From NCBI RefSeq assembly GCF_024748695.1, contig NZ_CP087176.1, positions 365,501 to 429,500 of the forward strand: a DNA stretch of 64,000 nt, written 5' to 3'. Origin of the DNA: Pseudomonas sp. B21-040. GTDB taxonomy: Bacteria > Pseudomonadota > Gammaproteobacteria > Pseudomonadales > Pseudomonadaceae. Of this stretch, positions 1 to 12,373 are shown one piece after another (position 1 is the first letter of the stretch; each line of letters begins with the position of its first letter). A model generated the notes under the pieces. That model saw only the letters and a list, made by a program, of their open reading frames with translations, did not search any database and was not told where the DNA came from. Both the position numbers and the translations under genes were made by a program.

Positions 1-823
1 CGCCTTCGGCCCGTACGTGGCTGACTATTCGCGCTACCTGCCGAGCAAGACTTCCTCGGTGAAAACCTTTTTCGCCGCAGGCGCCGGTTCGGTGATTGGT
101 GCACAGGTGGCGATGGTCCTCGGCGTGTTCGCCGCCGCTTCGGCCAACGGACAATTCGCCGGCCACGAAGTGGCCTACATCGTGGGTCTGGGCGGTACCG
201 GTGCCACCGCTGCGCTGCTGTATTTCAGCATTGCGTTCGGCAAGGTCACCATCTCCACGCTGAACTCCTACGGCAGCTTCATGTGCATTGCGACCATCAT
301 CAGCGGGTTCCGTGGTGACCTGAAGGTATCGCGCTTGCAGCGTCTGGTGTTCGTGCTGGTCATCGTCGGGGCTGCGACCCTGATGGCGTTGCTCGGCCAG
401 CACTCGTTCCTCGGTGCGTTCAAGTCTTTCATCCTGTTCCTGCTGGCGTTCTTTACGCCATGGAGCGCGATCAACCTGGTGGACTACTACTGCATCACCC
501 GCGAGCGCTATGACGTGCCGGCGCTGGCCGATCCGAACGGTCGCTATGGTCGTTGGAACGTCCTCGGTATCAGCATTTATGTCTTCGGTGTGCTGGTTCA
601 ACTGCCGTTCATCTCCACCAAGTTCTATACCGGTCCGCTGGTGGCGGCCCTGGGTGATGTGGATATTTCCTGGATCATCGGTCTGGTGATTCCCGCCGCC
701 CTGTATTACGTGTGCGCAAAAAAATGGCACGGCACAGTGCCTGATCGTTTGATCCTGCCGGTCGAGCAGGACGCGATCACTGAACAAAAGCTGAATGTTG
801 GTCGCGCTGCGGCGCAGGCCTGA
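1..823 (+). CDS. NCS1-family permease, probable urocanate transporter (5'-truncated)
   Basis: The reading frame is open from the first bases of the window, so the gene starts upstream; 273 residues of the C-terminal part are visible. It is a polytopic inner-membrane protein with several hydrophobic segments and the look of the nucleobase:cation symporter-1 (cytosine/purine permease) family, including an early G-P-Y-x-x-D-Y-S-R-Y stretch. The tail is hydrophilic. It lies 69 bases before hutX in the hut operon. In fluorescent pseudomonads the NCS1 permease of this locus is called HutTu and takes up urocanate; that substrate is inferred from position, not from visible residues. Confidence 0.8.
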   Translation, partial: AFGPYVADYSRYLPSKTSSVKTFFAAGAGSVIGAQVAMVLGVFAAASANGQFAGHEVAYIVGLGGTGATAALLYFSIAFGKVTISTLNSYGSFMCIATIISGFRGDLKVSRLQRLVFVLVIVGAATLMALLGQHSFLGAFKSFILFLLAFFTPWSAINLVDYYCITRERYDVPALADPNGRYGRWNVLGISIYVFGVLVQLPFISTKFYTGPLVAALGDVDISWIIGLVIPAALYYVCAKKWHGTVPDRLILPVEQDAITEQKLNVGRAAAQA

Positions 824-892
824 TTGGACGTGGACAGGGCTGGATGCCTCTTGACTGCCGTAAGCCAATTCATGATTAGGAGCGTCACAACA

Positions 893-1861
893 ATGAAATC
901 GAACAAGACCCTGCTGACCACATTGCTTTCCATGGGCCTGCTGGCCAGTGCCGGCGCCACTCAGGCAGCCGGTTGGTGCGAGTCGGGCAAACCGGTGAAA
1001 TTTGCCGGCCTGAACTGGGAAAGCGCCATGCTGCTGACCGACGTGCTGCAAGTCGTGTTGGAGAAAGGCTACGACTGCAAGACCGACAGCCTGCCGGGCA
1101 ACTCCATCACCATGGAAAACGCCCTGAGCAGCAACGACATTCAAGTGTTTGCCGAAGAGTGGGTCGGCCGCAGCGAAGTCTGGAACAAGGCCGAGAAGGC
1201 CGGCAAAGTCGTCGGTGTCGGCGCTCCGGTTGTTGGCGCGGTTGAAGGCTGGTACGTGCCGCGCTACGTGATCGAAGGCGACGCCAAGCGCAAACTGGAA
1301 CCTAAAGCCCCGGACCTGAAAAACATTGCTGACCTGGGCAAATACTCGGCGATCTTCAAAGACGCTGAAGAGCCGTCCAAAGGCCGTTTCTACAATTGCC
1401 CGGCCGGCTGGACCTGTGAGCTGGACAACAGCGAAATGCTGAAAAGCTACGGTCTGGAAAGCACCTACACCAACTTCCGCCCAGGCACCGGCCCGGCGCT
1501 GGATGCCGCCGTGCTGTCGAGCTACAAGCGTGGCGAGCCGATCCTGTTCTACTACTGGTCGCCCACCCCGCTGATGGGCCAGGTCGATGTGGTGAAACTC
1601 GAAGAGAAGCCAGGCGTGAACAAGACCGTGGATATCAAGGTCGGCCTGTCCAAGACGTTCCACGAACAAGCCCCGGAACTGGTGGCTGTACTGGAAAAAG
1701 TCAATGTGCCGATCGACATCCTCAACCAGAACCTGGGGCGCATGACCAAAGAGCGGATCGAGTCGCCAAAACTGGCCAAGATCTTCTTGAAGGAACATCC
1801 TGAAGTCTGGCACGCCTGGGTGAGCGAAGACGCAGCCAAGAAAATCGACGCGGCCTTGTAG
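893..1861 (+). CDS. hutX: ABC transporter substrate-binding protein HutX (histidine)
   Basis: Periplasmic solute-binding protein of the glycine betaine/choline (OpuAC/ProX) fold, 322 residues. The start at 893 is preferred: AGGAG lies about 10 bases upstream and the protein then begins with a clean signal peptide (MKSNK, hydrophobic core, cleavage near TQAAG). An in-frame start at 824 would only add a non-secretory extension. Aromatic residues at cage positions (LNWES, EEWVG, PRYV, YYWSPTP) resemble the betaine-binding family, but the place in the hut operon with hutW and hutV points to histidine as the ligand. A strong stem-loop follows the stop codon. Confidence 0.88.
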   Translation: MKSNKTLLTTLLSMGLLASAGATQAAGWCESGKPVKFAGLNWESAMLLTDVLQVVLEKGYDCKTDSLPGNSITMENALSSNDIQVFAEEWVGRSEVWNKAEKAGKVVGVGAPVVGAVEGWYVPRYVIEGDAKRKLEPKAPDLKNIADLGKYSAIFKDAEEPSKGRFYNCPAGWTCELDNSEMLKSYGLESTYTNFRPGTGPALDAAVLSSYKRGEPILFYYWSPTPLMGQVDVVKLEEKPGVNKTVDIKVGLSKTFHEQAPELVAVLEKVNVPIDILNQNLGRMTKERIESPKLAKIFLKEHPEVWHAWVSEDAAKKIDAAL

Positions 1862-1871
1862 GTTGGGCCTC

Positions 1872-1897
1872 TCCGACTGCCGGTAGCGGCAGTCGGA
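1872..1897 (+). other. Stem-loop between hutX and hutW
   Basis: A perfect 10-bp stem (tccgactgcc / ggcagtcgga) with a 6-base loop sits in the 70-base hutX-hutW gap. No T-run follows, so it is unlikely to be a full terminator. In operons of binding-protein transporters such hairpins often protect the upstream mRNA or give partial termination, so that more binding protein than permease is made; that role is inferred here. Confidence 0.6.
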
Positions 1898-1931
1898 CGC
1901 TTGATCGCAACCCCTTGATTGAGAGTCTCTT

Positions 1932-2783
1932 ATGTTTCCCGAAAGCTTTACCTTTTCCATCGCCGACTGGGTCAACGGTTGGGTCGACTCGTTGGTCACC
2001 AACTACGGCGACGTGTTTCGGCAGATCTCTGACACCCTGCTGTGGGCCATCGTCAATCTTGAAGGGCTGCTGCGCGCGGCGCCCTGGTGGCTGATGTTGG
2101 CCATCGTCGCAGGCGTTGCCTGGCACGCGACCCGCAAAGTCGTGACCACGGCCGTGATCGTCGGCTTGTTGTTCCTGGTGGGTGCCGTCGGCCTCTGGGA
2201 CAAGCTGATGCAAACCCTGGCGTTGATGATGGTGGCGACGATCATTTCGGTGCTGATCGGCATTCCGCTGGGCATTCTCTCGGCGCGCAGCAACCGCCTG
2301 CGTTCGATACTGATGCCGCTGCTGGACATCATGCAGACCATGCCGAGTTTCGTGTACCTGATCCCGGTGCTGATGCTGTTCGGCCTGGGCAAGGTCCCGG
2401 CGATTTTCGCCACCGTGATTTACGCCGCGCCACCGCTGATCCGCTTGACCGATCTGGGCATTCGCCAGGTCGACGGTGAAGTGATGGAAGCGATCAACGC
2501 CTTCGGTGCCAACCGCTGGCAGCAACTGTTTGGCGTGCAACTGCCGCTGGCCCTGCCGAGCATCATGGCCGGGATCAACCAGACCACCATGATGGCGCTG
2601 TCGATGGTGGTCATTGCTTCGATGATCGGTGCCCGTGGCTTGGGTGAAGACGTGCTGGTGGGGATTCAGACCCTCAACGTCGGACGTGGCCTGGAAGCCG
2701 GTCTGGCGATCGTGATTCTGGCTGTGGTGATCGACCGTATTACTCAGGCGTACGGTCGGGCCCGGCATGAGGTGAGCAAATGA
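1932..2783 (+). CDS. hutW: ABC transporter permease HutW
   Basis: Inner-membrane permease (283 aa) of the proline/glycine betaine-type MetI-like class. It has an amphipathic N-terminus, paired early membrane segments (about residues 50-90) and a run of further helices. The EAA-like coupling loop is visible around [23 protein letters not shown], followed by [16 protein letters not shown] lies a few bases before the ATG. The gene overlaps hutV by four bases (ATGA), so the two are translationally coupled. With HutX and HutV it forms the high-affinity histidine importer of the hut locus. Confidence 0.88.
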
Positions 2784-3610
2784 ACAACGCGACCGTAAGC
2801 AAGATCGAAGTCAAAAACGTCTTCAAGATTTTTGGCAACCGTTCCAAAGATGCACTGGCGATGATTGGCCAGGGCAAAACCAAGGACCAGGTGCTGGCCG
2901 AAACCGGCTGCGTGGTCGGCGTGAACGATCTGTCGCTGAGCATCGGCAGCGGCGAGATCTTCGTGATCATGGGCCTGTCGGGCTCCGGCAAGTCGACTTT
3001 GGTACGCCACTTCAATCGCCTGATCGACCCGACCAGCGGCGCGATCCTGGTGGATGGCGTGGACATCCTGCAATACGACATGGAAGCCCTGCGCGAATTT
3101 CGTCGACGCAAGATCAGCATGGTGTTCCAGAGCTTCGGCCTGTTGCCGCACAAGAGCGTGCTGGACAACGTCGCCTACGGCTTGAAAATTCGTGGCGAGA
3201 GCAAAGCCATGTGCGCCGAGCGTGCGCTGCACTGGATCAACACCGTGGGCCTCAAGGGCTACGAAAACAAATACCCGCATCAGCTCTCGGGCGGCATGCG
3301 TCAGCGTGTGGGCCTGGCCCGTGCCCTGGCGGCGGACACCGACATCATCCTGATGGACGAAGCGTTCAGCGCCCTCGACCCGCTGATCCGCGCCGAGATG
3401 CAGGACCAGTTGCTGGAGCTGCAAAAGACCCTGCACAAGACCATCGTCTTCATCACCCACGACCTCGACGAGGCCGTGCGCATCGGCAACCGCATCGCGA
3501 TCCTCAAGGACGGCCGCCTGATCCAGGTCGGCACCCCGAGAGAGATCCTGCATTCGCCGGCGGATGAATATGTCGACCGGTTTGTGCAACGGCGGGCGGC
3601 GGTGGTTTAA
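2780..3610 (+). CDS. hutV: ABC transporter ATP-binding protein HutV
   Basis: Cytoplasmic ATPase subunit (276 aa) of the ProV/OpuAA type. Walker A is GLSGSGKST, the signature is LSGGMRQR, Walker B with its catalytic Glu is [13 protein letters not shown], and the switch His is in [10 protein letters not shown]. An N-terminal stretch before Walker A ([21 protein letters not shown]) is typical of the betaine-class ATPases. The C-terminal CBS pair found in longer ProV proteins is absent, as the protein ends soon after the nucleotide-binding domain. It overlaps hutW and is followed by a repeat element. Confidence 0.88.
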
Positions 3611-3615
3611 AGGTC

Positions 3616-3750
3616 GATCGTTCCCACGCTCTGCGTGGGAATGCATCCCGTGACGCTCCGCGTCACACATGCGCAGGGCTTGAGCCTTGCACTGGCAACG
3701 GGACGCGGAGCGTCCCAGGCAGCATTCCCACGCAGAGCGTGGGAACGATC
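3616..3750. repeat. Intergenic inverted-repeat element, copy A
   Basis: Perfect 29-bp terminal inverted repeats (3616-3644 and 3722-3750, beginning gatcgttcccacgct) enclose two smaller palindromes: gtgacgctccgcgtcac (about 3650-3666) and gggacgcggagcgtccc (3700-3716). Related copies occur at 20550-20660 and 48926-49036, and a solo right end at 11265-11288. No coding capacity is needed for any of it. It lies between hutV and hutH1, inside the operon, and looks like a non-autonomous mobile repeat. Confidence 0.85.
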
Positions 3751-3778
3751 AATTCAGGTTGTACGCACGAGGTTGAAG

Positions 3779-5302
3779 ATGTCCCAGGCTGAAAAAATCG
3801 TTATCGCCGATGCCCCCGTGCGTTGGCAGGATGTGGTGGCCGTCGCCCGTGATGGCGCGCAGCTTGAGCTGTCGGCGCAGGTCTGGGCACGGATTGAAAA
3901 CGCGCAAGGCATCGTCCAGCGTATCGTCACCAGCGGTGAGCGCGCTTACGGCATCAACACCGGGCTGGGGGCGTTGTGCAACGTCTCGCTGGCGGATGAA
4001 CAACTCAGCCAGTTGTCGCGCAATACCTTGCTCAGCCATGCCTGTGGCGTTGGCGCGCCCCTGACCGACGAGCAGACTCGCTCGATCATGTGCGCTGCTG
4101 TCGTCAACTACAGCCATGGCAAATCCGGCCTGCACCGCCAGGTGGTCGAAGCCTTGCTGGCGTTGCTCAACCGTGGGATCACCCCGCAAGTGCCTTCCCA
4201 GGGTTCCGTGGGTTACCTGACCCACATGGCGCACATCGGCATTGCGCTGCTGGGTGTCGGCAATGTCAGCTATCGCGGGCAGGTCGTTTCCGCTCAGCAA
4301 GCCCTGGCCGAAGAAGGCCTGCAACCGGTCAAGCTCGGCGCCAAGGACGGTTTGTGCCTGGTCAACGGCACGCCGTGCATGACCGGCCTGAGCTGCCTGG
4401 CCATTGCCGATGCCACGCGCCTGCTGCAATGGGCCGACGTGATCGGTGCCATGAGTTTCGAGGCCCAGCGCGGTCAGATCGATGCGTTCGATGCCGAGAT
4501 CATTGCACTCAAGCCGCACCCGGGCATGCAGCAAGTGGGGATCAATCTGCGTGCGGTGCTCGACGGTAGCGAAGTGATCGCCAGCAGCAAGGGCATTCGC
4601 ACCCAGGATGCCTTGAGCATTCGTTCGATCCCGCAGGTTCACGGCGCGGCGCGCGATCAACTGGTTCACGCGACCCGACAGATCGAAACCGAACTCAACA
4701 GCGCCACCGACAACCCGCTGGTGCTGGGCACGCCGGACAACTACCGCGTGGTGTCCCAGGCCAACCCGCACGGTCAGTCCGTGGCATTGGCAGCAGACCT
4801 GCTGGCCATCGCCATGGCCGAAATCGGCTCCATCGCCGAGCGTCGCCTGGACCGCTTGATCAACCCTCACGTCAGTGGTCTGCCGGCATTTCTGGTGGCC
4901 AACCCGGGGGTGAACTCCGGGATGATGATCGTCCAGTACGTCGCCGCGTCCCTGTGCGCGGAAAACCGCCAATTGGCGCAACCGGCGGTGCTCGACAACT
5001 ACGTCACGTCGGGCCTTCAGGAAGACCACCTGAGCCTGGGCACCAACGCCGCGCTGAAGCTGCACCGCGCACTGGAAAACTGCACGCAGATCCTCGCCAT
5101 CGAGTACCTGCTGGCGTCTCAGGCGTTTGAATTCTTGAAAGAGCAACGCTTCGGCGCCGGTACCGATGCTGCCTGGCGTCTGCTGCGTGAGCGCGTTCCT
5201 GCCTACGATCAGGACCGCTGGCTGGCACCGGACATTGCCGCCGCTGCCGGTGTATTGAAAGACCCGAACTTGCTGCAAAAGGCTTTACCGAATCTGAACT
5301 GA
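3779..5302 (+). CDS. hutH1: HutH1: histidine ammonia-lyase paralogue lacking the MIO triad
   Basis: Full-length member (507 aa) of the aromatic amino-acid lyase family, paralogous to HutH2 just downstream. The ATG at 3779 matches the family N-terminus; longer in-frame starts run through the upstream repeat. The fold markers RAYGINTGLG, LVNGTP, SATDNPLV and LQEDHLSL are kept. At the cofactor site the sequence is GSVGYLTHMAH where HutH2 has [15 protein letters not shown], so exactly the Ala-Ser-Gly that cyclises to MIO is missing. The Tyr of PYSLR is Leu (L279) and the Phe of GGNFHAE is Pro. MIO-dependent deamination of histidine is therefore unlikely. In fluorescent pseudomonads hutH2 is the lyase needed for growth on histidine; the role of hutH1 is unclear. 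Confidence 0.85.
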   Translation: MSQAEKIVIADAPVRWQDVVAVARDGAQLELSAQVWARIENAQGIVQRIVTSGERAYGINTGLGALCNVSLADEQLSQLSRNTLLSHACGVGAPLTDEQTRSIMCAAVVNYSHGKSGLHRQVVEALLALLNRGITPQVPSQGSVGYLTHMAHIGIALLGVGNVSYRGQVVSAQQALAEEGLQPVKLGAKDGLCLVNGTPCMTGLSCLAIADATRLLQWADVIGAMSFEAQRGQIDAFDAEIIALKPHPGMQQVGINLRAVLDGSEVIASSKGIRTQDALSIRSIPQVHGAARDQLVHATRQIETELNSATDNPLVLGTPDNYRVVSQANPHGQSVALAADLLAIAMAEIGSIAERRLDRLINPHVSGLPAFLVANPGVNSGMMIVQYVAASLCAENRQLAQPAVLDNYVTSGLQEDHLSLGTNAALKLHRALENCTQILAIEYLLASQAFEFLKEQRFGAGTDAAWRLLRERVPAYDQDRWLAPDIAAAAGVLKDPNLLQKALPNLN

Positions 5303-5433: not shown

Positions 5434-6966
5434 ATGACTGCGCTAAACCTGATTCCCGGCCAACTGAGCCTCGCCCAACTGCGTGATGTCTATCAGCAGC
5501 CGGTGAAATTGACCCTCGACAACAGCGCCTCGGCACAAATTGAAGCCAGCGTTGCCTGCGTGGAACAGATCCTCGCCGAGAACCGCACCGCCTATGGCAT
5601 CAACACCGGTTTCGGCCTGCTGGCCTCGACCCGCATCGCCAGCGAAGACCTGGAAAACCTTCAGCGCTCGCTGGTGCTGTCTCACGCCGCCGGTGTCGGC
5701 GAGCCGATCAGCGACGCCTTGGTGCGCCTGGTCATGGTGCTCAAGGTCAACAGCCTGAGCCGTGGTTTCTCCGGTATCCGTCGCGTGGTCATCGACGCGC
5801 TGATCGCCCTGATCAACGCTGAGGTTTACCCGCACATTCCATTGAAAGGCTCGGTCGGTGCTTCCGGCGATTTGGCGCCGTTGGCCCATATGTCGCTGGT
5901 GCTGCTGGGTGAAGGCAAGGCGCGCTACAAGGGCGAGTGGATGGAGGCGACCGAAGCGCTGAAAGTCGCCGGCCTGACGCCGCTGACCCTGGCCGCGAAA
6001 GAAGGCCTGGCGCTGCTCAACGGCACTCAAGTGTCGACCGCTTACGCACTGCGCGGTTTGTTCGAAGGCGAAGACCTGTTCGCTGGCGCTGTCGCGCTGG
6101 GCGCGCTGACCGTTGAAGCGGTATTGGGCTCGCGCTCGCCGTTCGATGCTCGCATCCATGCCGCCCGTGGCCAGAAAGGCCAGATCGACGCCGCTGCCGC
6201 TTACCGCGACCTGCTGGGCGAGCGCAGTGAAGTGTCCGACTCGCACGAAAACTGCGAAAAGGTCCAGGACCCGTACTCCCTGCGCTGCCAGCCACAAGTC
6301 ATGGGCGCCTGCCTGACTCAGTTCCGTCAGGCCGCTGAAGTGCTCGCTATCGAGGCCAACGCCGTCTCCGATAACCCGCTGGTATTCGCCGCTGAAGGCG
6401 ATGTGATTTCCGGCGGTAACTTCCACGCCGAACCCGTGGCCATGGCCGCTGACAACATGGCGCTGGCCATCGCTGAAATCGGTTCTCTGAGCGAACGCCG
6501 CATCTCGCTGATGATGGACAAGCACATGTCGCAACTGCCGCCATTCCTGGTGGCAAACGGCGGCGTGAACTCTGGCTTCATGATCGCCCAAGTGACCGCT
6601 GCCGCATTGGCCAGCGAGAACAAGGCCCTGTCACATCCGCATTCGGTAGACAGCCTGCCGACGTCGGCGAACCAGGAAGACCACGTGTCCATGGCCCCGG
6701 CTGCAGGCAAGCGCCTGTGGGAAATGGCGGAAAACACCCGCGGTGTTCTGGCCGTGGAATGGTTGGCGGCGGCTCAAGGCCTGGACTTGCGCGAAGGCCT
6801 GAAGAGCTCGGCAAAACTGGAAAAGGCCCGTGCCATCCTGCGTAACGAAGTGCCGTTTTATGAGAAGGACCGTTTCTTTGCGCCGGACATCAATGCTGCG
6901 ACTGAATTGTTGGCCTCGCGTTGCCTGAACGAGCTGGTAATGGCGAAGTTGCTGCCGAGCCTGTAA
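5434..6966 (+). CDS. hutH: Histidine ammonia-lyase (catalytic paralogue)
   Basis: Converts L-histidine to trans-urocanate and ammonia, the first step of histidine breakdown; cytosolic homotetramer. The 510-aa protein has the full length of the family. The MIO-forming triad is present as A143-S144-G145 in [15 protein letters not shown], with [26 protein letters not shown] (Y281, R284), SGGNFHAE and NQEDHVSM all intact. A strong AAAGGAG ribosome-binding site precedes the ATG. The ~130 bases after hutH1 contain no gene. It corresponds to hutH2 of fluorescent pseudomonads. Confidence 0.95.
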
Positions 6967-6974
6967 TGGCCTAT

Positions 6975-7037
6975 TCGCGAGCAGGCTCGCTCCCACAGTG
7001 GATTGTGTAAACCCTGTGGGAGCGAGCCTGCTCGCGA
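6975..7037. repeat. REP doublet (hutH-hutT gap)
   Basis: Two inverted copies of a REP-type unit form a perfect 24-bp stem (6975-6998 with 7014-7037, core gtgggagcgagcctgctcgcga) around a 15-base loop. It sits within the hut operon right after hutH and may stabilise the upstream mRNA or weaken readthrough into the permease gene. It belongs to the same general class as the units at 22386, 31478, 33078, 36550, 41154 and 43845. Confidence 0.85.
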
Positions 7038-7076
7038 TTCGATTTTGCGTCGAATAAGAATAATTAAGGACGAGAA

Positions 7077-8486
7077 ATGCAACAGCCAGCAAAAGGTTTG
7101 AAACGCGGGCTTTCTGCCCGACATATTCGCTTCATGGCGCTGGGGTCGGCGATCGGCACCGGGCTGTTTTACGGTTCTGCCTCGGCCATTCAAATGGCCG
7201 GCCCCGCGGTATTGCTCGCCTACCTGATCGGTGGCGCAGCGGTGTTCATGGTCATGCGCGCCCTCGGTGAGATGGCAGTGCACAACCCGGTGGCCGGCTC
7301 TTTCGGTCAGTACGCCAGCACCTATCTGGGGCCGATGGCGGGCTTCATCCTCGGTTGGACCTACGCGTTCGAAATGGTCATCGTCGGCATGGCCGACGTC
7401 ACCGCGTTCGGTATTTACATGGGCTTCTGGTTCCCGGAAGTCTCCCGCTGGATCTGGGTGCTGGGCATCGTTTCGGTGGTCGGCGGCTTGAACCTGTGTA
7501 ACGTCAAGGTCTTCGGTGAAATGGAGTTCTGGCTGTCACTGCTCAAGGTCGCAGCCATCGTCGCGATGATTCTGGGTGGCTTCGGCATCATGCTGTTCGG
7601 CATCAGCACGGCGCCCGGCGCCCAAGCGACCGATATCAGCAACCTCTGGAGCCATGGCGGTTTCATGCCCAATGGCGTGGGTGGCCTGATCGCTTCGTTC
7701 GCGGTGGTGATGTTCGCATTCGGCGGGATTGAAATCATCGGCGTGACCGCCGGTGAGGCCAAAGATCCGCAGCATGTGCTGCCTAGAGCGATCAATGCCG
7801 TACCGTTGCGTATTTTGCTGTTCTATGTGCTGACCATGTTCGTACTGATGTCGATCTTTCCATGGCAGCAGATCGGCAGCCAAGGCAGTCCGTTCGTGCA
7901 GATTTTCGACAATCTGGGCATCAGCTCGGCGGCGACCATCCTCAATATTGTGGTGATCTCGGCGGCGATCTCGGCCATCAACAGCGACATCTTCGGCGCT
8001 GGCCGCATGATGTACGGTCTGGCCCAGCAAGGGCACGCACCTAAGGGCTTCGCCCGTTTGTCGCGTAATGGCGTGCCATGGATGACCGTGGTGGTGATGA
8101 GTGCCGCGCTGCTGCTGGGTGTGCTGTTGAACTACCTGATTCCGGAAAACGTGTTTCTGTTGATCGCCTCCATCGCGACCTTTGCCACGGTATGGGTCTG
8201 GCTGATGATTCTGTGTACCCAGGTGGCCATGCGTCGCTCCATGAGTGCCGAGCAGGTCGCACAACTGAAGTTCCCTGTACCGTTCTGGCCCTATGCGCCG
8301 ATGGCGGCGATTGCCTTCATGCTGTTCATTTTCGGCGTGCTGGGTTATTTCCCGGACACCCAGGCGGCGCTGATCGTCGGTGTGGTCTGGATCGTGCTGC
8401 TGGTGCTGGCCTACCTGACGTGGGTGAAACCGGCGGCGGGCCAGGCGGCACTGGTAGAGCAGGAACCTTCTTTTTCACATCAATAA
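7077..8486 (+). CDS. hutT: Histidine permease, amino acid transporter (AAT/APC) family
   Basis: Inner-membrane amino acid:proton symporter (469 aa) with about 12 hydrophobic segments. The N-terminus [31 protein letters not shown]... is the classic AAT-family entry, with the unwound first helix around GSAIGTGLF, and [19 protein letters not shown] is the family's central motif. AAGGA lies just before the ATG. Placed between hutH and hutI, it is the counterpart of HutTh, the main histidine transporter of the hut locus in fluorescent pseudomonads. Substrate assignment rests on position and family. Confidence 0.85.
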
Positions 8487-8503: not shown

Positions 8504-9709
8504 ATGAAAACTCTCTGGCAACACTGCCACGTCGCAACCATGGCACAAGGCGTCTACTCGATCATCGAGGACGCGGCCATCGTGACGTCAGGTGCGCTCA
8601 TTGAGTGGATCGGCCCGCGCGCTGACCTGCCCGCGGGCGAGTACCCGGCCGTCAACGATTTGCAAGGGGCCTGGGTAACGCCGGGTCTGATCGACTGCCA
8701 CACCCACACGGTGTTTGGCGGTAATCGTAGCGGCGAATTCGAACAGCGCCTGCAAGGCGTCAGCTACGCAGAAATCGCAGCGGCCGGTGGTGGCATCGCC
8801 AGCACCGTACGCGCGACCCGCGCAGCCTCTGAAGACGAGCTGTTCGCCAGCGCCGCCAAGCGTCTTAAAAGCCTGATGCGTGATGGCGTGACCACGGTCG
8901 AAATGAAATCCGGCTACGGCCTCGACCTGGCCAGCGAGCGCAAGATCCTTCGAGTCATTCGCCGCCTCGGCGCCGAATTGCCGATCAGCGTGCGCAGCAC
9001 GTGCCTGGCCGCTCACGCGTTGCCGCCGGAATACGCCGACCGCGCCGACGACTACATCGATCACATCTGCGCCGAAATGCTCCCGGCCCTGGCCGCCGAA
9101 GGGTTGGTGGATGCGGTGGATGCATTCTGCGAATACCTGGCGTTCTCGCCGGCGCAGGTTGAACGGGTGTTCATCACCGCACAGGAACTCGGTTTGCCGG
9201 TGAAGCTGCACGCAGAACAACTGTCGTCGCTGCACGGTTCGAGCCTGGCGGCGCGTTATCACGCACTGTCGGCCGATCATCTGGAATTCATGACCGAGGA
9301 CGATGCCATCGCCATGGCCAAGTCCGGAACCGTCGCGGTGCTGCTGCCGGGCGCGTTCTACTTCCTGCGGGAAACTCAGTTGCCGCCGATGGACGCGCTG
9401 CGCAAGCACGGTGTGAAAATAGCCATCGCCAGCGACCTCAACCCGGGCACCTCGCCTGCGCTGTCGTTGCGCTTGATGCTGAACATGGCCTGCACCTGTT
9501 TCCGCATGACCCCGGAAGAGGCGCTGGCGGGCGCGACGATTCATGCCGCCACCGCGCTGGGCATGGCCGATACCCACGGCTCGCTGGAAGCCGGAAAAGT
9601 CGCGGATTTTGTCGCCTGGCAAATCGATCGTCCGGCCGATCTGTCGTACTGGCTCGGCGGTGACCTGGAAAAACGCGTCGTGCGTCACGGCGTCGAGACA
9701 AGTGTTTAG
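8504..9709 (+). CDS. hutI: Imidazolonepropionase
   Basis: Hydrolyses 4-imidazolone-5-propionate to N-formimino-L-glutamate, the third step of histidine catabolism; cytosolic metal-dependent amidohydrolase. At 401 aa it has normal length. The metal-binding entry motif [10 protein letters not shown], the glycine-rich [12 protein letters not shown] loop, KSGYGLD, KLHAEQ and [10 protein letters not shown] are all present. It begins 17 bases after the permease stop with GGAGG before the ATG, and ends 10 bases before hutG. Confidence 0.95.
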
Positions 9710-9719
9710 GAGAACAGCT

Positions 9720-10523
9720 GTGGATAAAGTTCTGAACTTCAAACAAGGCCGTGTGCCGCTGCTGATCAGCATGCCTCACGCGGGCGTGCGCCTGACCCCG
9801 GCGGTCGAAGCCGGGTTGATTCCCGACGCCCGCAGTCTGCCGGATACCGACTGGCACATTCCGAAGCTTTATGAATTTGCCACGGAACTGGGCGCCAGCA
9901 CCCTGGCCGCCGAGTACTCGCGGTTTGTCATCGACCTGAACCGTCCCTCCGACGACAAGCCTTTGTATGTCGGCGCGACCACGGGCCTGTACCCGGCGAC
10001 GCTGTTCGATGGCATTCCCTTGTTCCGCGAAGGCCTGGAACCGTCGAAAGAAGAGCGCACGACCTGGCTGGAACAGATCTGGACGCCGTATCACACGACA
10101 TTGCAAAACGAGCTGGCACGGCTGAAAGCCGAGTTCGGTTTTGCGTTGCTGTTCGACGCGCACTCGATCCGCTCGATCATCCCGCACTTGTTCGACGGCA
10201 AGCTGCCGGACTTCAACCTCGGCACCTTCAATGGCGCCAGTTGCGATCCTGAGTTGGCCACTCAACTGGAAGCCATTTGCGCGCGCCACGGCGATTACAG
10301 CCATGTGCTGAACGGCCGCTTCAAGGGCGGCCACATCACCCGGCATTACGGCAATCCGGCCGAGAATATCCATGCGGTGCAACTGGAGTTGGGTCAGTGC
10401 ACATATATGGAAGAGTTCGAACCGTTCCGCTATCGCCCGGATCTGGCTGCGCCGACGCAAGTGGTGCTCAAGGAGTTGCTGAAAGGTCTGCTGGATTGGG
10501 GATCTAAAAAATTCTTGAGGTGA
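9720..10523 (+). CDS. hutG: N-formylglutamate deformylase
   Basis: Hydrolyses N-formyl-L-glutamate to glutamate and formate, the last step of the five-step hut route (HutF makes formylglutamate; it must be encoded outside the window). I place the start at the GTG at 9720, ten bases after hutI, because AGGAG lies just upstream and the family N-terminus (DKVLNFKQGRVPLLISMPHAG) follows directly. A longer ATG frame from 9543 would overlap hutI. Protein of 267 aa. Metal-site motifs visible are SMPHAG, DTDWH, LLFDAHS and FKGGHITRHYG. Last gene of the operon. Confidence 0.92.
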   Translation: MDKVLNFKQGRVPLLISMPHAGVRLTPAVEAGLIPDARSLPDTDWHIPKLYEFATELGASTLAAEYSRFVIDLNRPSDDKPLYVGATTGLYPATLFDGIPLFREGLEPSKEERTTWLEQIWTPYHTTLQNELARLKAEFGFALLFDAHSIRSIIPHLFDGKLPDFNLGTFNGASCDPELATQLEAICARHGDYSHVLNGRFKGGHITRHYGNPAENIHAVQLELGQCTYMEEFEPFRYRPDLAAPTQVVLKELLKGLLDWGSKKFLR

Positions 10524-11060: not shown

Positions 11061-11416
11061 AATTAATTCTCCAGTTTGAAATATTATCGTTGCGGGTGGC
11101 GGCTCCTGTTTGCTTGTTGATTTAATATTTTTCTGGGTTTTTTGTCTGCTGGTACTTTTGACAGTTTTTTATATTGATTGATTATATTGAACTGTCTATA
11201 TGCGCCTTAGGGTGCGTTATCTGAATGTCACCGCCTTGGCTACGGCCATCCGATAAGCCTTGCTGCATTCCCACGCAGAGCGTGGGAAGTCGCCACCGTG
11301 CAAAACACAGTCGCCACAGTTCACTTTTACCTTCTCGACGCTGCGTAATGTTTCGGGCACGGTGCATAAAGACACCGGCCTTCACAATAATCCGCTGCCG
11401 CACGAGAATGCTCTCT
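11061..11416. other. Gene-free stretch, AT-rich then normal, with a solo repeat end
   Basis: Bases 11061-11215 are unusually AT-rich and form the upstream region of the orphan gene on -. They include a small inverted pair gacagtt/aactgtc (about 11158-11200). From about 11216 the composition returns to normal. Bases 11265-11288 match the right terminal repeat of the 3616-3750 element. No supported gene was seen; an open frame from 11225 into the binding-protein gene has no family support before 11408. Confidence 0.6.
11265..11288. repeat. Solo terminal end of the intergenic inverted-repeat family
   Basis: gcattcccacgcagagcgtg and the four bases after it match the right-hand terminal repeat of the element at 3616-3750. 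No left end or inner palindromes were found nearby, so this is a remnant or an isolated half unit at the edge of the accessory patch. Confidence 0.7.
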
Positions 11417-12373
11417 ATGACAAGCCCCAAAGGTCTGTTCACCCGCTGTCTCTCAATCCTCTGCGGCACGGCTCTTCTGAGCACCAGCGTCCTGGCCAGC
11501 GACGATGCTTCCTGCAAAGCCGTGCGCATGGGCGTGGTCAACTGGACCGATGTGATCGCCACCAGTGGCATGGCCGATGTGTTACTCAATGGCCTGGGCT
11601 ACGAAAGCAAGCAAACCAGCGCTGTGCAGCAAATCATCTTCGCCGGCATCCGCGACAAGCGCCTGGACATTTTCCTGGGTTACTGGAAACCGGCGATGGA
11701 CAAAAACATCGCGCCGTTCGTGGCGGCCAACCAAGTGAAAGTCATGGAGAAACCGAGCCTGGCCGATGCTCAGGCCACCCTCGCGGTTCCGGACTACGTG
11801 GCCGCCGCCGGTTTGAAAACCTTTGCCGACATCGCCCGATTCAAAGACCAGCTCGGCGGCAAGATCTACGGCATCGAGCCCGGCAGCGGCGCCAACACCA
11901 CGATCAAAACCATGATCGAGACCAATCACTTTGGCTTGAAGGATTTCAAACTGATTGAATCCGGCGAGGCCGGCATGCTCGCCGCCGTACAGCGTGCAGT
12001 GAATCGCAAGGAGTTCGTGGTGTTCGTCGGCTGGACCCCGCACCCGATGAACATCAACATGAAGATCGACTACCTGACCGGCAGTGAAGACGTCTACGGA
12101 CCGAACGAAGGTTCGGCGACGGTCTCTACGGTCACTTCGCCGGATTACGCTGAACGTTGCCCGAATGTAAATCGCCTGCTGGAGAACCTGACTTTCAGCG
12201 CCTCGCAGGAAAGTCAGTTGATGGTGCCGATCATGGAGCGCAAGACGCCGCAGGATGTCGCCAGGCAGTGGTTGCGCGATCACCCGGAAGATATGCAGCG
12301 TTGGTTGGCGGGTGTCAGCAGTTTTGATGGTAAGGATGGCGTTGCCACCGTTCAGGCCAGTTTGAAAAACTGA
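11417..12373 (+). CDS. Orphan ABC transporter substrate-binding protein, choline/glycine betaine type
   Basis: Periplasmic binding protein of the ChoX/OpuAC family, 318 aa from the ATG at 11417; an ATG at 11408 is also possible. The signal peptide is TSPKGLFTRCLSILCGTALL, with cleavage near VLASDD. Four aromatic positions expected for a quaternary-ammonium cage are present: VVNWTD, GYWKP, VPDYV and GWTPHPMN. No permease or ATPase genes are adjacent, so it is an orphan that must share a transporter encoded elsewhere, as known for CaiX and BetX in pseudomonads. An HSL-type esterase follows after 49 bases. The ligand could be choline, a betaine or carnitine; the sequence does not decide. Confidence 0.82.
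   Translation: MTSPKGLFTRCLSILCGTALLSTSVLASDDASCKAVRMGVVNWTDVIATSGMADVLLNGLGYESKQTSAVQQIIFAGIRDKRLDIFLGYWKPAMDKNIAPFVAANQVKVMEKPSLADAQATLAVPDYVAAAGLKTFADIARFKDQLGGKIYGIEPGSGANTTIKTMIETNHFGLKDFKLIESGEAGMLAAVQRAVNRKEFVVFVGWTPHPMNINMKIDYLTGSEDVYGPNEGSATVSTVTSPDYAERCPNVNRLLENLTFSASQESQLMVPIMERKTPQDVARQWLRDHPEDMQRWLAGVSSFDGKDGVATVQASLKN

Follow-up and report, generated by a model that had tools for sequence, protein, structure and literature searches.

Why does a histidine utilization (hut) operon carry, next to the gene of an ordinary histidine ammonia-lyase (HAL), a second hutH gene whose product lacks the residues from which the catalytic cofactor of this family is made? The question is raised by a stretch of 64,000 nucleotides of Pseudomonas sp. 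B21-040 (contig NZ_CP087176.1, positions 365,501 to 429,500 of the forward strand; hereafter, the window), in which this second gene, hutH1, adjoins the ordinary one, hutH2. We propose that HutH1 is probably a lyase independent of the 4-methylidene-imidazol-5-one (MIO) cofactor, which would split hercynine (N-alpha-trimethyl-L-histidine or histidine betaine), its predicted substrate, into trimethylamine and urocanate. On balance, we also favour a broader view, in which many Pseudomonas and other proteobacteria would have a second route into the histidine pathway, one free of the cofactor, where a HutH-derived lyase with its own importer converts hercynine into urocanate and trimethylamine.

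In both a three-way and a 70-row alignment, the active site of HutH1 (GSVGYLTH) was exactly three residues shorter than that of HutH2 and in register on both sides, which bears out the first-pass annotation of this locus, where the MIO-forming triad was reported to be missing. The same annotation held that the lost residues are exactly Ala-Ser-Gly (ASG). The triad is indeed absent in either alignment, but which three residues are gone is a matter of alignment choice: MAFFT places the gap over Ser-Gly-Asp, with HutH1 Tyr146 opposite Ala142, and the alternative, with the gap over Ala-Ser-Gly and the tyrosine opposite Asp, is equivalent. Since HutH1 has no such triad, MIO cannot form and, as already concluded at that stage, the protein cannot be a MIO lyase. 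Named genomes were then searched with a profile built from MIO-less sequences, and of 585 confirmed loci the best 80 were retained (Halomonas/Vreelandella, Pseudomonas, Pantoea, Enterobacter, Prodigiosinella and one metagenome-assembled genome). All 80 share the site GSVGY followed by the three-residue gap and Leu, and 32 of the 70 rows of our family tree have the corresponding Gly-Tyr site with its gap (GY rows). Because the same site is read in all these proteins, it is not a sequencing slip. Two other family members were matched in the genome of the window, HutH2 and a paralogue outside the window (L003) resembling tyrosine ammonia-lyase (TAL), and both keep ASG. Despite its missing triad, HutH1 passes the cutoff of the NCBIfam hutH equivalog TIGR01225 (Table 1), and the acceptance of triad-less proteins by this model is a likely source of wrong names. 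A Priestia protein without the catalytic triad (P0125) is likewise accepted.

HutH1 had been described as free of decay, and the ratio of nonsynonymous to synonymous substitution rates (dN/dS, Nei-Gojobori) agrees: it ranged from 0.041 to 0.137 against 14 congeners, with the same site in all the named loci, and from 0.194 to 0.201 against three more distant genomes. For HutH2, the partial sequences of the same loci gave 0.013 to 0.078. HutH1 is a conserved protein under purifying selection, somewhat less constrained than HutH2. From 298 genomes of the genus of the window (own genome included), 207 displayed a HutH1 match at E ≤ 1e-150, a level beyond that of ordinary HutH matches (about 1e-90 to 1e-110), the MIO site not being read in each of the 207. 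In wider and overlapping samples, again with the own genome, the threshold E ≤ 1e-112 was passed by 3 out of 369 genomes of the class and 23 out of 398 of the phylum. One class-wide match (L060/L091, genome G674) proved to be an ordinary HutH with ASG, despite its initial selection as MIO-less, and was counted among the controls; all the other matches whose site was read (L004–L012, L062–L073) are MIO-less. Members of the MIO-less branch were also found in Erwinia, Rhizobium and Burkholderia, and a protein with the same site on a Priestia plasmid; this branch is older than Pseudomonas.

To place HutH1 in its family, we built a careful maximum-likelihood tree of 70 proteins from which the MIO columns were removed. 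The 29 proteobacterial MIO-less rows form a single clade (100/100 for bootstrap and the Shimodaira–Hasegawa-like approximate likelihood ratio test, SH-aLRT), and the 33 ASG rows lie on one side of a branch (91/89). The same-site rows of the Priestia plasmid (L036) and of the Klebsiella plasmids (L037, L050) are on long branches, and a single clade for all 32 GY rows was not rejected by the approximately unbiased (AU) test (p-AU 0.354). The ergothionase of Treponema denticola clusters with Sinorhizobium meliloti and Paracoccus plasmid proteins (100/99), not with HutH1, and the AU test rejects a clade of the 32 GY and 3 ergothionase-type rows without the rows of the 'AAD' type (p 3.7e-8). A second tree was made with a quick method, TAL-like MIO enzymes serving as the outgroup and 13 near-duplicate rows being dropped. 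Every MIO-less row but one (L102, see below) then falls on one side of ordinary HutH. Because the MIO state changes just twice in this rooted tree, one of the changes being that of L102, the simplest reading, weakly supported, is a single MIO loss that gave rise to ergothionase as well as to the HutH1 branch. Independent losses with a convergent Leu280 are not claimed, for the same reason.

The residues around the missing cofactor were then compared, with numbering as in P. putida HAL, columns computed from the alignments and roles that we take to be those known for that enzyme. Tyr53, His83, Asn195, Gln277, Arg283 and Glu414 are retained in the 29 core MIO-less rows. The 80 named loci all share Tyr53, Leu59, His83, Asn195, Leu280, Arg283, Arg358 and Glu414, the patterns used in that scan (YGxNTG and SHACGV stretches) excluding the MIO site but demanding Leu or Val at position 59. 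At position 280, all 33 ASG rows have Tyr, whereas the 37 MIO-less rows of all site types, ergothionase included, have Leu. In these 37 rows, again with the T. denticola enzyme, Phe59 is replaced by Val or Leu and position 358 is Arg or Lys. Position 329 is Phe in 32 out of 32 ASG rows and Ala or Pro in the 29 core MIO-less rows; the ergothionase-type and 'AAD' rows retain Phe. In HutH1 itself, Tyr57, His87, Arg282 and Glu415 are equivalent to HAL Tyr53, His83, Arg283 and Glu414, while Leu279 stands at the position of Tyr280 and Pro330 at that of Phe329. This pattern suggests that MIO disappeared along with the residues in contact with it, while those for substrate binding and acid/base catalysis were retained. 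An AlphaFold model of HutH1 (41 sequences) reached a predicted local distance difference test score (pLDDT) of 89.4 and a predicted template modelling score (pTM) of 0.91, pLDDT being <50 at residues 407–414 and about 74 in the block 141–150. With this model, the top four Foldseek matches were P. putida HAL structures (template modelling score, TM, 0.91–0.92; 40% identity), and ergothionase was matched with a TM of 0.90. The model fits HAL and ergothionase about equally and gives no ground for choosing between substrates.

The MIO electrophile turns ammonia, a poor leaving group, into a good one, and trimethylammonium leaves without it once the beta-proton has been removed. HutH1 would thus perform a 1,2-elimination on a histidine with an alpha-amino group already able to leave readily, hercynine being the likeliest candidate. 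The substrate would be imported by HutXWV, its imidazole held by His87 and Glu415 and its carboxylate by Arg282, and Tyr57 would be the base removing the beta-proton. Trimethylamine would then be released into the space freed by MIO, Tyr280 and Phe329, the shorter loop together with Leu279 and Pro330 making room for the N(CH3)3 group, and the resulting urocanate would be converted to glutamate via HutU, HutI, HutF and HutG.

The nature of the substrate is hinted at by the neighbouring genes. Directly upstream of hutH1 (890–3610), and overlooked in the first-pass annotation, is an OpuAC-type HutXWV importer, which suggests the type of substrate: HutH1 is preceded, in this order, by a binding protein of OpuAC type, a permease of ProW type and an ATPase of ProV type. 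The HutX-like protein has seven solved relatives, the top four of which are named as glycine betaine/proline binders. We searched 36 MIO-less loci and 24 control loci with ordinary HutH for four importer types, on the same strand and within 5 kb. An importer lies beside the lyase in 30 of the 36 MIO-less loci (13 of polar amino acid type, PAAT; 9 OpuXWV; 6 BCCT; 2 OsmV/OpuB) vs. none of the 24 controls. Except for PAAT, these importer types belong to betaine/choline/carnitine families, and OpuXWV and OsmV/OpuB share the OpuAC family of binding proteins; a betaine-family importer is therefore present in 17 of the 30 importer-bearing loci (17/36 overall). Among the named loci, 79 out of 80 have an importer (66 OpuXWV, 7 BCCT and 6 PAAT; 73 out of 79 of a betaine family), and the only one without (L256) is at a contig end. 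The six importer-less loci of the former set are L036, L045, L046, L080, L089 and L204. A sugar-type MFS transporter lies directly upstream of the lyase in L036, and an OsmV/OpuB set is on the opposite strand in L045. In L202, L206 and L081, hutU and the lyase gene are separated by a BCCT gene (PF02028, 389–398 bits). In three loci, a flavoprotein resembling SolA/N-methyl-L-tryptophan oxidase directly follows the MIO-less lyase (L047:9514-10668, L048:9498-10643, L085 near 10.7 kb), a hint that N-methyl amino acids are handled there.

The fate of the product was approached through the hut genes surrounding the lyase. At least three of them are in view in 20 out of 31 MIO-less loci and in 64 of the 80 named loci. 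A MIO-less HutH-like protein is the only lyase in view in the complete or nearly complete hut sets of two Klebsiella plasmids (L037, L050) and of the Aureimonas plasmid pAU20c (L045), the view being that of the plasmid loci alone. From 25 genomes with a MIO-less HutH, no ordinary HutH was found in three (G130, G1296 and G1330), which belong to one genus (g85) and are 99–100% complete; the six named-organism genomes searched for the same absence (L211, L212, L214, L217, L246, L250) all have one. In the three genomes, the MIO-less lyase is located between HutU and HutI, with a BCCT-matching gene (confirmed by Pfam in G1296), HutF, HutC and HutD, and the hut stretches of G130 and G1330 also contain HutG. 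Each has a single ASG paralogue, best matched by the TAL model (364–371 bits vs. the 539-bit hutH cutoff) and with Gln at position 414, which could have a weak activity on histidine; G130 additionally has an 'AAD'-type family member. All five HutU partners examined (own operon, L202, L045, L036, L037) score 985–1018 bits against the model for urocanate hydratase; they fall below the cutoffs for thiourocanate hydratase (930) and S-methyl-thiourocanate hydratase (880). In addition, neither ErtD nor a thiourocanate hydratase was matched above cutoff in the genome of the window, where urocanase gave a single match. The product of HutH1 would therefore most simply be urocanate, formed from a substrate with an unmodified imidazole ring.

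Several observations weigh against hercynine cleavage by HutH1. The references of the importer comparison were drawn from MIO-less loci, which favours them, and 20 of the 24 controls come from the order of the window; when either strand is considered, a BCCT gene occurs in one control (L104), and single ATPases occur in two more (L039, L116). Moreover, the importers of 13 of the 30 loci are PAAT, and these, together with the SolA-like oxidase, suggest a substrate range that may extend to other N-methylated histidines. HutXWV reportedly contributes to histidine uptake in P. fluorescens SBW25 (PMC8871633), so an importer alone is no proof of a betaine substrate. Eleven P. putida-like loci have the OpuXWV-HutH1 cassette without hut genes in their 8-kb flanks (L221, L224–L226, L228, L230, L234, L242, L244, L246, L249), as do L217, L288 and L289 for the absence of hut genes. 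An ordinary HutH is also present in 22 of the 25 genomes tested, six of these positives being judged by score alone. The dN/dS of HutH1 is higher than that of HutH2 in all 14 congener pairs. As for the residues, ergothionase retains Phe329 where HutH1 has Pro, and the MIO-less paralogue L102 retains both Tyr280 and Phe59. Finally, the node uniting the HutH1 clade and ergothionase is weak (SH-aLRT 80), with long branches flagged (ergothionase, L037, L102 and others).

Could HutH1 be an ergothionase by its substrate, i.e. remove trimethylamine from ergothioneine or S-methyl-ergothioneine to give (S-methyl-)thiourocanate? Ergothionase is a MIO-free relative, an Agrobacterium member of the family stands beside an S-methyl-thiourocanate hydratase and ErtD (see below), and EgtUC is among the betaine/choline binders matched by the binding protein from the Klebsiella plasmid cluster. 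Nevertheless, HutH1 lies outside the clade of the T. denticola enzyme and lacks its SSIGEG-D site, the five partner urocanases are ordinary, and the genome of the window has no thiourocanate hydratase or ErtD above cutoff, which makes this substrate unlikely. We consider it distinctly unlikely that HutH1 removes another leaving group from a modified histidine (e.g. partly N-methylated, or another alpha-substituted imidazole propionate), with urocanate still passing to HutU. Such a substrate would fit the PAAT importers of 13 of the 36 loci and the SolA-like oxidase of L047, L048 and L085, but three of the four importer types come from quaternary-amine families, and mono- and dimethylamine are, from general chemistry, poorer leaving groups than trimethylamine.

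The first-pass annotation had considered another function probable for HutH1, listing a regulatory partner, a binding protein or a different chemistry. The last is very likely, whereas a purely regulatory or binding role finds no support in our data: the catalytic Tyr, His, Arg and Glu are retained in the 80 named loci, 3 of the 25 genomes have no HutH2-type partner for HutH1 to assist (G130, G1296, G1330), importer-lyase cassettes exist with no hut genes in view, and such a role would have to hold beside four importer types. A non-catalytic partner of HutH2 or of the importer is thus very improbable, even though MIO is missing, the two genes are adjacent and hutH1 is reported as dispensable for the growth of SBW25 on histidine (PMC8871633). 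The passing of the hutH cutoff and the retained imidazole-site residues would also suit a histidine ammonia-lyase working without MIO. Given that, in established HAL chemistry, ammonia leaves poorly in the absence of MIO, we give this little credence indeed. The chance that HutH1 is a decaying duplicate or a sequencing or assembly error is negligible: the defining cofactor residues are lost and dN/dS is somewhat above that of HutH2, but the low dN/dS across the 14 congeners and the identical site in all the named loci rule this out, and the branch predates Pseudomonas, with its Erwinia, Rhizobium and Burkholderia members and the Priestia plasmid protein.

If HutH1 is a hercynine lyase, many genes named histidine ammonia-lyase would be trimethylamine lyases for a betaine. 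Hercynine is made by fungi and actinobacteria, and its cleavage would release trimethylamine from a source so far not tracked and supply soil and plant bacteria with nitrogen. The place of hutH1 in the hut operon, despite its being dispensable on histidine, would also be explained. As the same operon holds the fold with and without MIO, it allows a direct test of the rule that quaternary amines can do without this cofactor. No hercynine lyase, nor such a role for HutH1, was found in print in the open-access literature, searched mostly by titles and the beginnings of abstracts, which is weak evidence of novelty. In addition, no NCBIfam trimethylamine-lyase model was matched by HutH1 or by nine further MIO-less proteins scanned (these nine at E ≤ 1e-60).

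Table 1. Features of the hut region in the window (positions counted from the first nucleotide of the window)
Feature	Position	Strand	Basis and remarks
NCS1 (cytosine-permease-like) transporter, C-terminal part	1..823	+	5' part lies outside the window; complete gene, L074:11354-12823
hutX-like substrate-binding protein, OpuAC family (glycine betaine type)	890..1861	+	PF04069, 203.5 bits; start codon inferred
hutW-like permease, ProW/ChoW type	1932..2783	+	TIGR03416, 294.7 bits (below 363-bit cutoff); ProW model, 262.3 bits (below cutoff)
hutV-like ATPase, ProV type	2780..3610	+	TIGR01186, 365.8 bits (above 326.6-bit cutoff)
hutH1, MIO-less HutH homologue, 507 aa	3779..5302	+	ATG start, no internal stop; PF00221; TIGR01225, 542.3 bits (cutoff 539.15)
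Shortened active-site loop GSVGYLTHMAHIGIA, no Ala-Ser-Gly triad	4202..4246	+	HutH1 codon 142 (Gly of GSVG) begins at 4202
Leu279 codon, at the position of HAL Tyr280; second hallmark of MIO-less members	4613..4615	+	Aligned columns
hutH2, ordinary histidine ammonia-lyase with ASG triad	5434..6966	+	TIGR01225, 726.6 bits
Amino-acid permease, proY-like, hutT position	7077..8486	+	ProY model, 677.1 bits (below 736-bit cutoff)
hutI, imidazolonepropionase	8504..9709	+	TIGR01224, 490.5 bits
hutG, N-formylglutamate deformylase	9720..10523	+	Open reading frame, start codon inferred; matches annotated hutG of L037 at 318 bits

The mechanical list of open reading frames places two of these starts earlier, at 824 for the hutX-like gene and at 3635 for hutH1. 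The latter is within a region of REP-like palindromes, one of which, between hutV and hutH1, coincides with this too-early start. Such palindromes were seen in the gap between hutV and hutH1 (about 3615–3755) and in that between hutH2 and the permease gene (6976–7040). Just downstream of the hut operon, a choline-type substrate-binding protein is encoded at 11225–12373 (TIGR03414, 437 bits vs. the 379-bit cutoff).

Other HutH relatives without MIO were encountered outside the HutH1 branch. L102 (L102:588-2075, minus strand; G122:C1:3171487-3172974), from the same family as the genome of the window, is a HutH paralogue without ASG whose site is GSVGYLGPEGHLA / GSVGYLGPEGH; the tree sets it apart from the other MIO-less rows, and its MIO may have been lost separately. 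A third type of site, GSIGA-GDLVPM, is found in L153 / L156 (G1183:C1:112959-114398), with Leu280 and Arg at position 83; L153 has Gln at 358, unlike the 37 MIO-less rows compared above. Another MIO-less lineage (L082:5213 on the minus strand, L040, L151, L157, L199, L201) displays the site GS[IL]GAA-DLA with Leu280. Its Asn195 is replaced by Val or Ala and its His83 by Arg in all those read except L157, and its member L082 adjoins an OsmV/OpuB-type importer and hut genes. The hut operons of the Klebsiella plasmids (L037, L050) are plasmid-borne with an EgtUC/OpuCC-like importer and are possibly a mobile island for histidine-betaine utilization.

Among the known systems close to HutH1, ergothionase sets the precedent for the proposed chemistry. 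The first-pass annotation, which gave MIO as required by all characterized histidine, phenylalanine and tyrosine ammonia-lyases and aminomutases, overlooked that the superfamily includes a MIO-free enzyme: PMC13405746 presents ergothionase (PDB 6s7j) as lacking MIO and releasing trimethylamine from ergothioneine. HutH1 resembles the T. denticola enzyme (PDB 6s7j/6s7q) by its HAL/PAL superfamily fold (the TM of 0.90 given above), by the absence of MIO, by Leu at position 280, an aliphatic residue at that of Phe59 and a basic one at 358, by the retained Tyr53 and Glu414 and, as proposed here, by trimethylamine as the leaving group. However, the two proteins are only 27–28% identical and in separate clades, the ergothionase site SSIGEG-DIT differs from GSVGYLTH, and ergothionase R57, W61, N62 and K63 correspond to T, A, L and C in HutH1 (NRGVGWNKD in 6s7j vs. 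NTGLGALCN). Nor does the genome of the window contain a thiourocanate pathway above cutoffs. Site, clade and the missing sulphur pathway together rule out plain membership of HutH1 in the ergothionase family.

P. putida HAL (PDB 1b8f) belongs to the closest solved fold group and shares with HutH1 the imidazole-site and catalytic residues as well as the operon; unlike HAL, HutH1 has no ASG, Leu instead of Tyr280 and Pro instead of Phe329. The arrangement of the window is similar to hutTu-hutXWV-hutH1 of P. fluorescens SBW25 (PMC8871633), where a transporter, XWV and H1 are inserted between hutU and hutH. The accessible part of that account describes the module as a histidine transporter with an extra histidase gene that is not required on histidine and, unlike the present work, mentions there neither a loss of MIO nor another substrate.

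The last comparison comes from clusters for ergothioneine or S-methyl-ergothioneine (NCBIfam NF058531, NF058538). On the Agrobacterium plasmid pAt15955 (L035:1-10482), a lyase of the HutH1 clade, annotated as hutH and with the GSVGYLTH site, follows an OpuXWV importer. This same-site lyase and importer type are shared with the operon of the window, which has HutU, HutI, HutF and HutG where the plasmid cluster has an S-methyl-thiourocanate hydratase (975.8 bits, cutoff 880), an ErtD hydantoinase (782.8, cutoff 600) and a molybdopterin reductase. It is apparently a cluster for S-methyl-ergothioneine utilization. To judge from the names of this pathway, its lyase step must remove trimethylamine from a trimethylated thio-histidine, and the branch of HutH1 would therefore be tied to trimethylated histidines independently of Pseudomonas.

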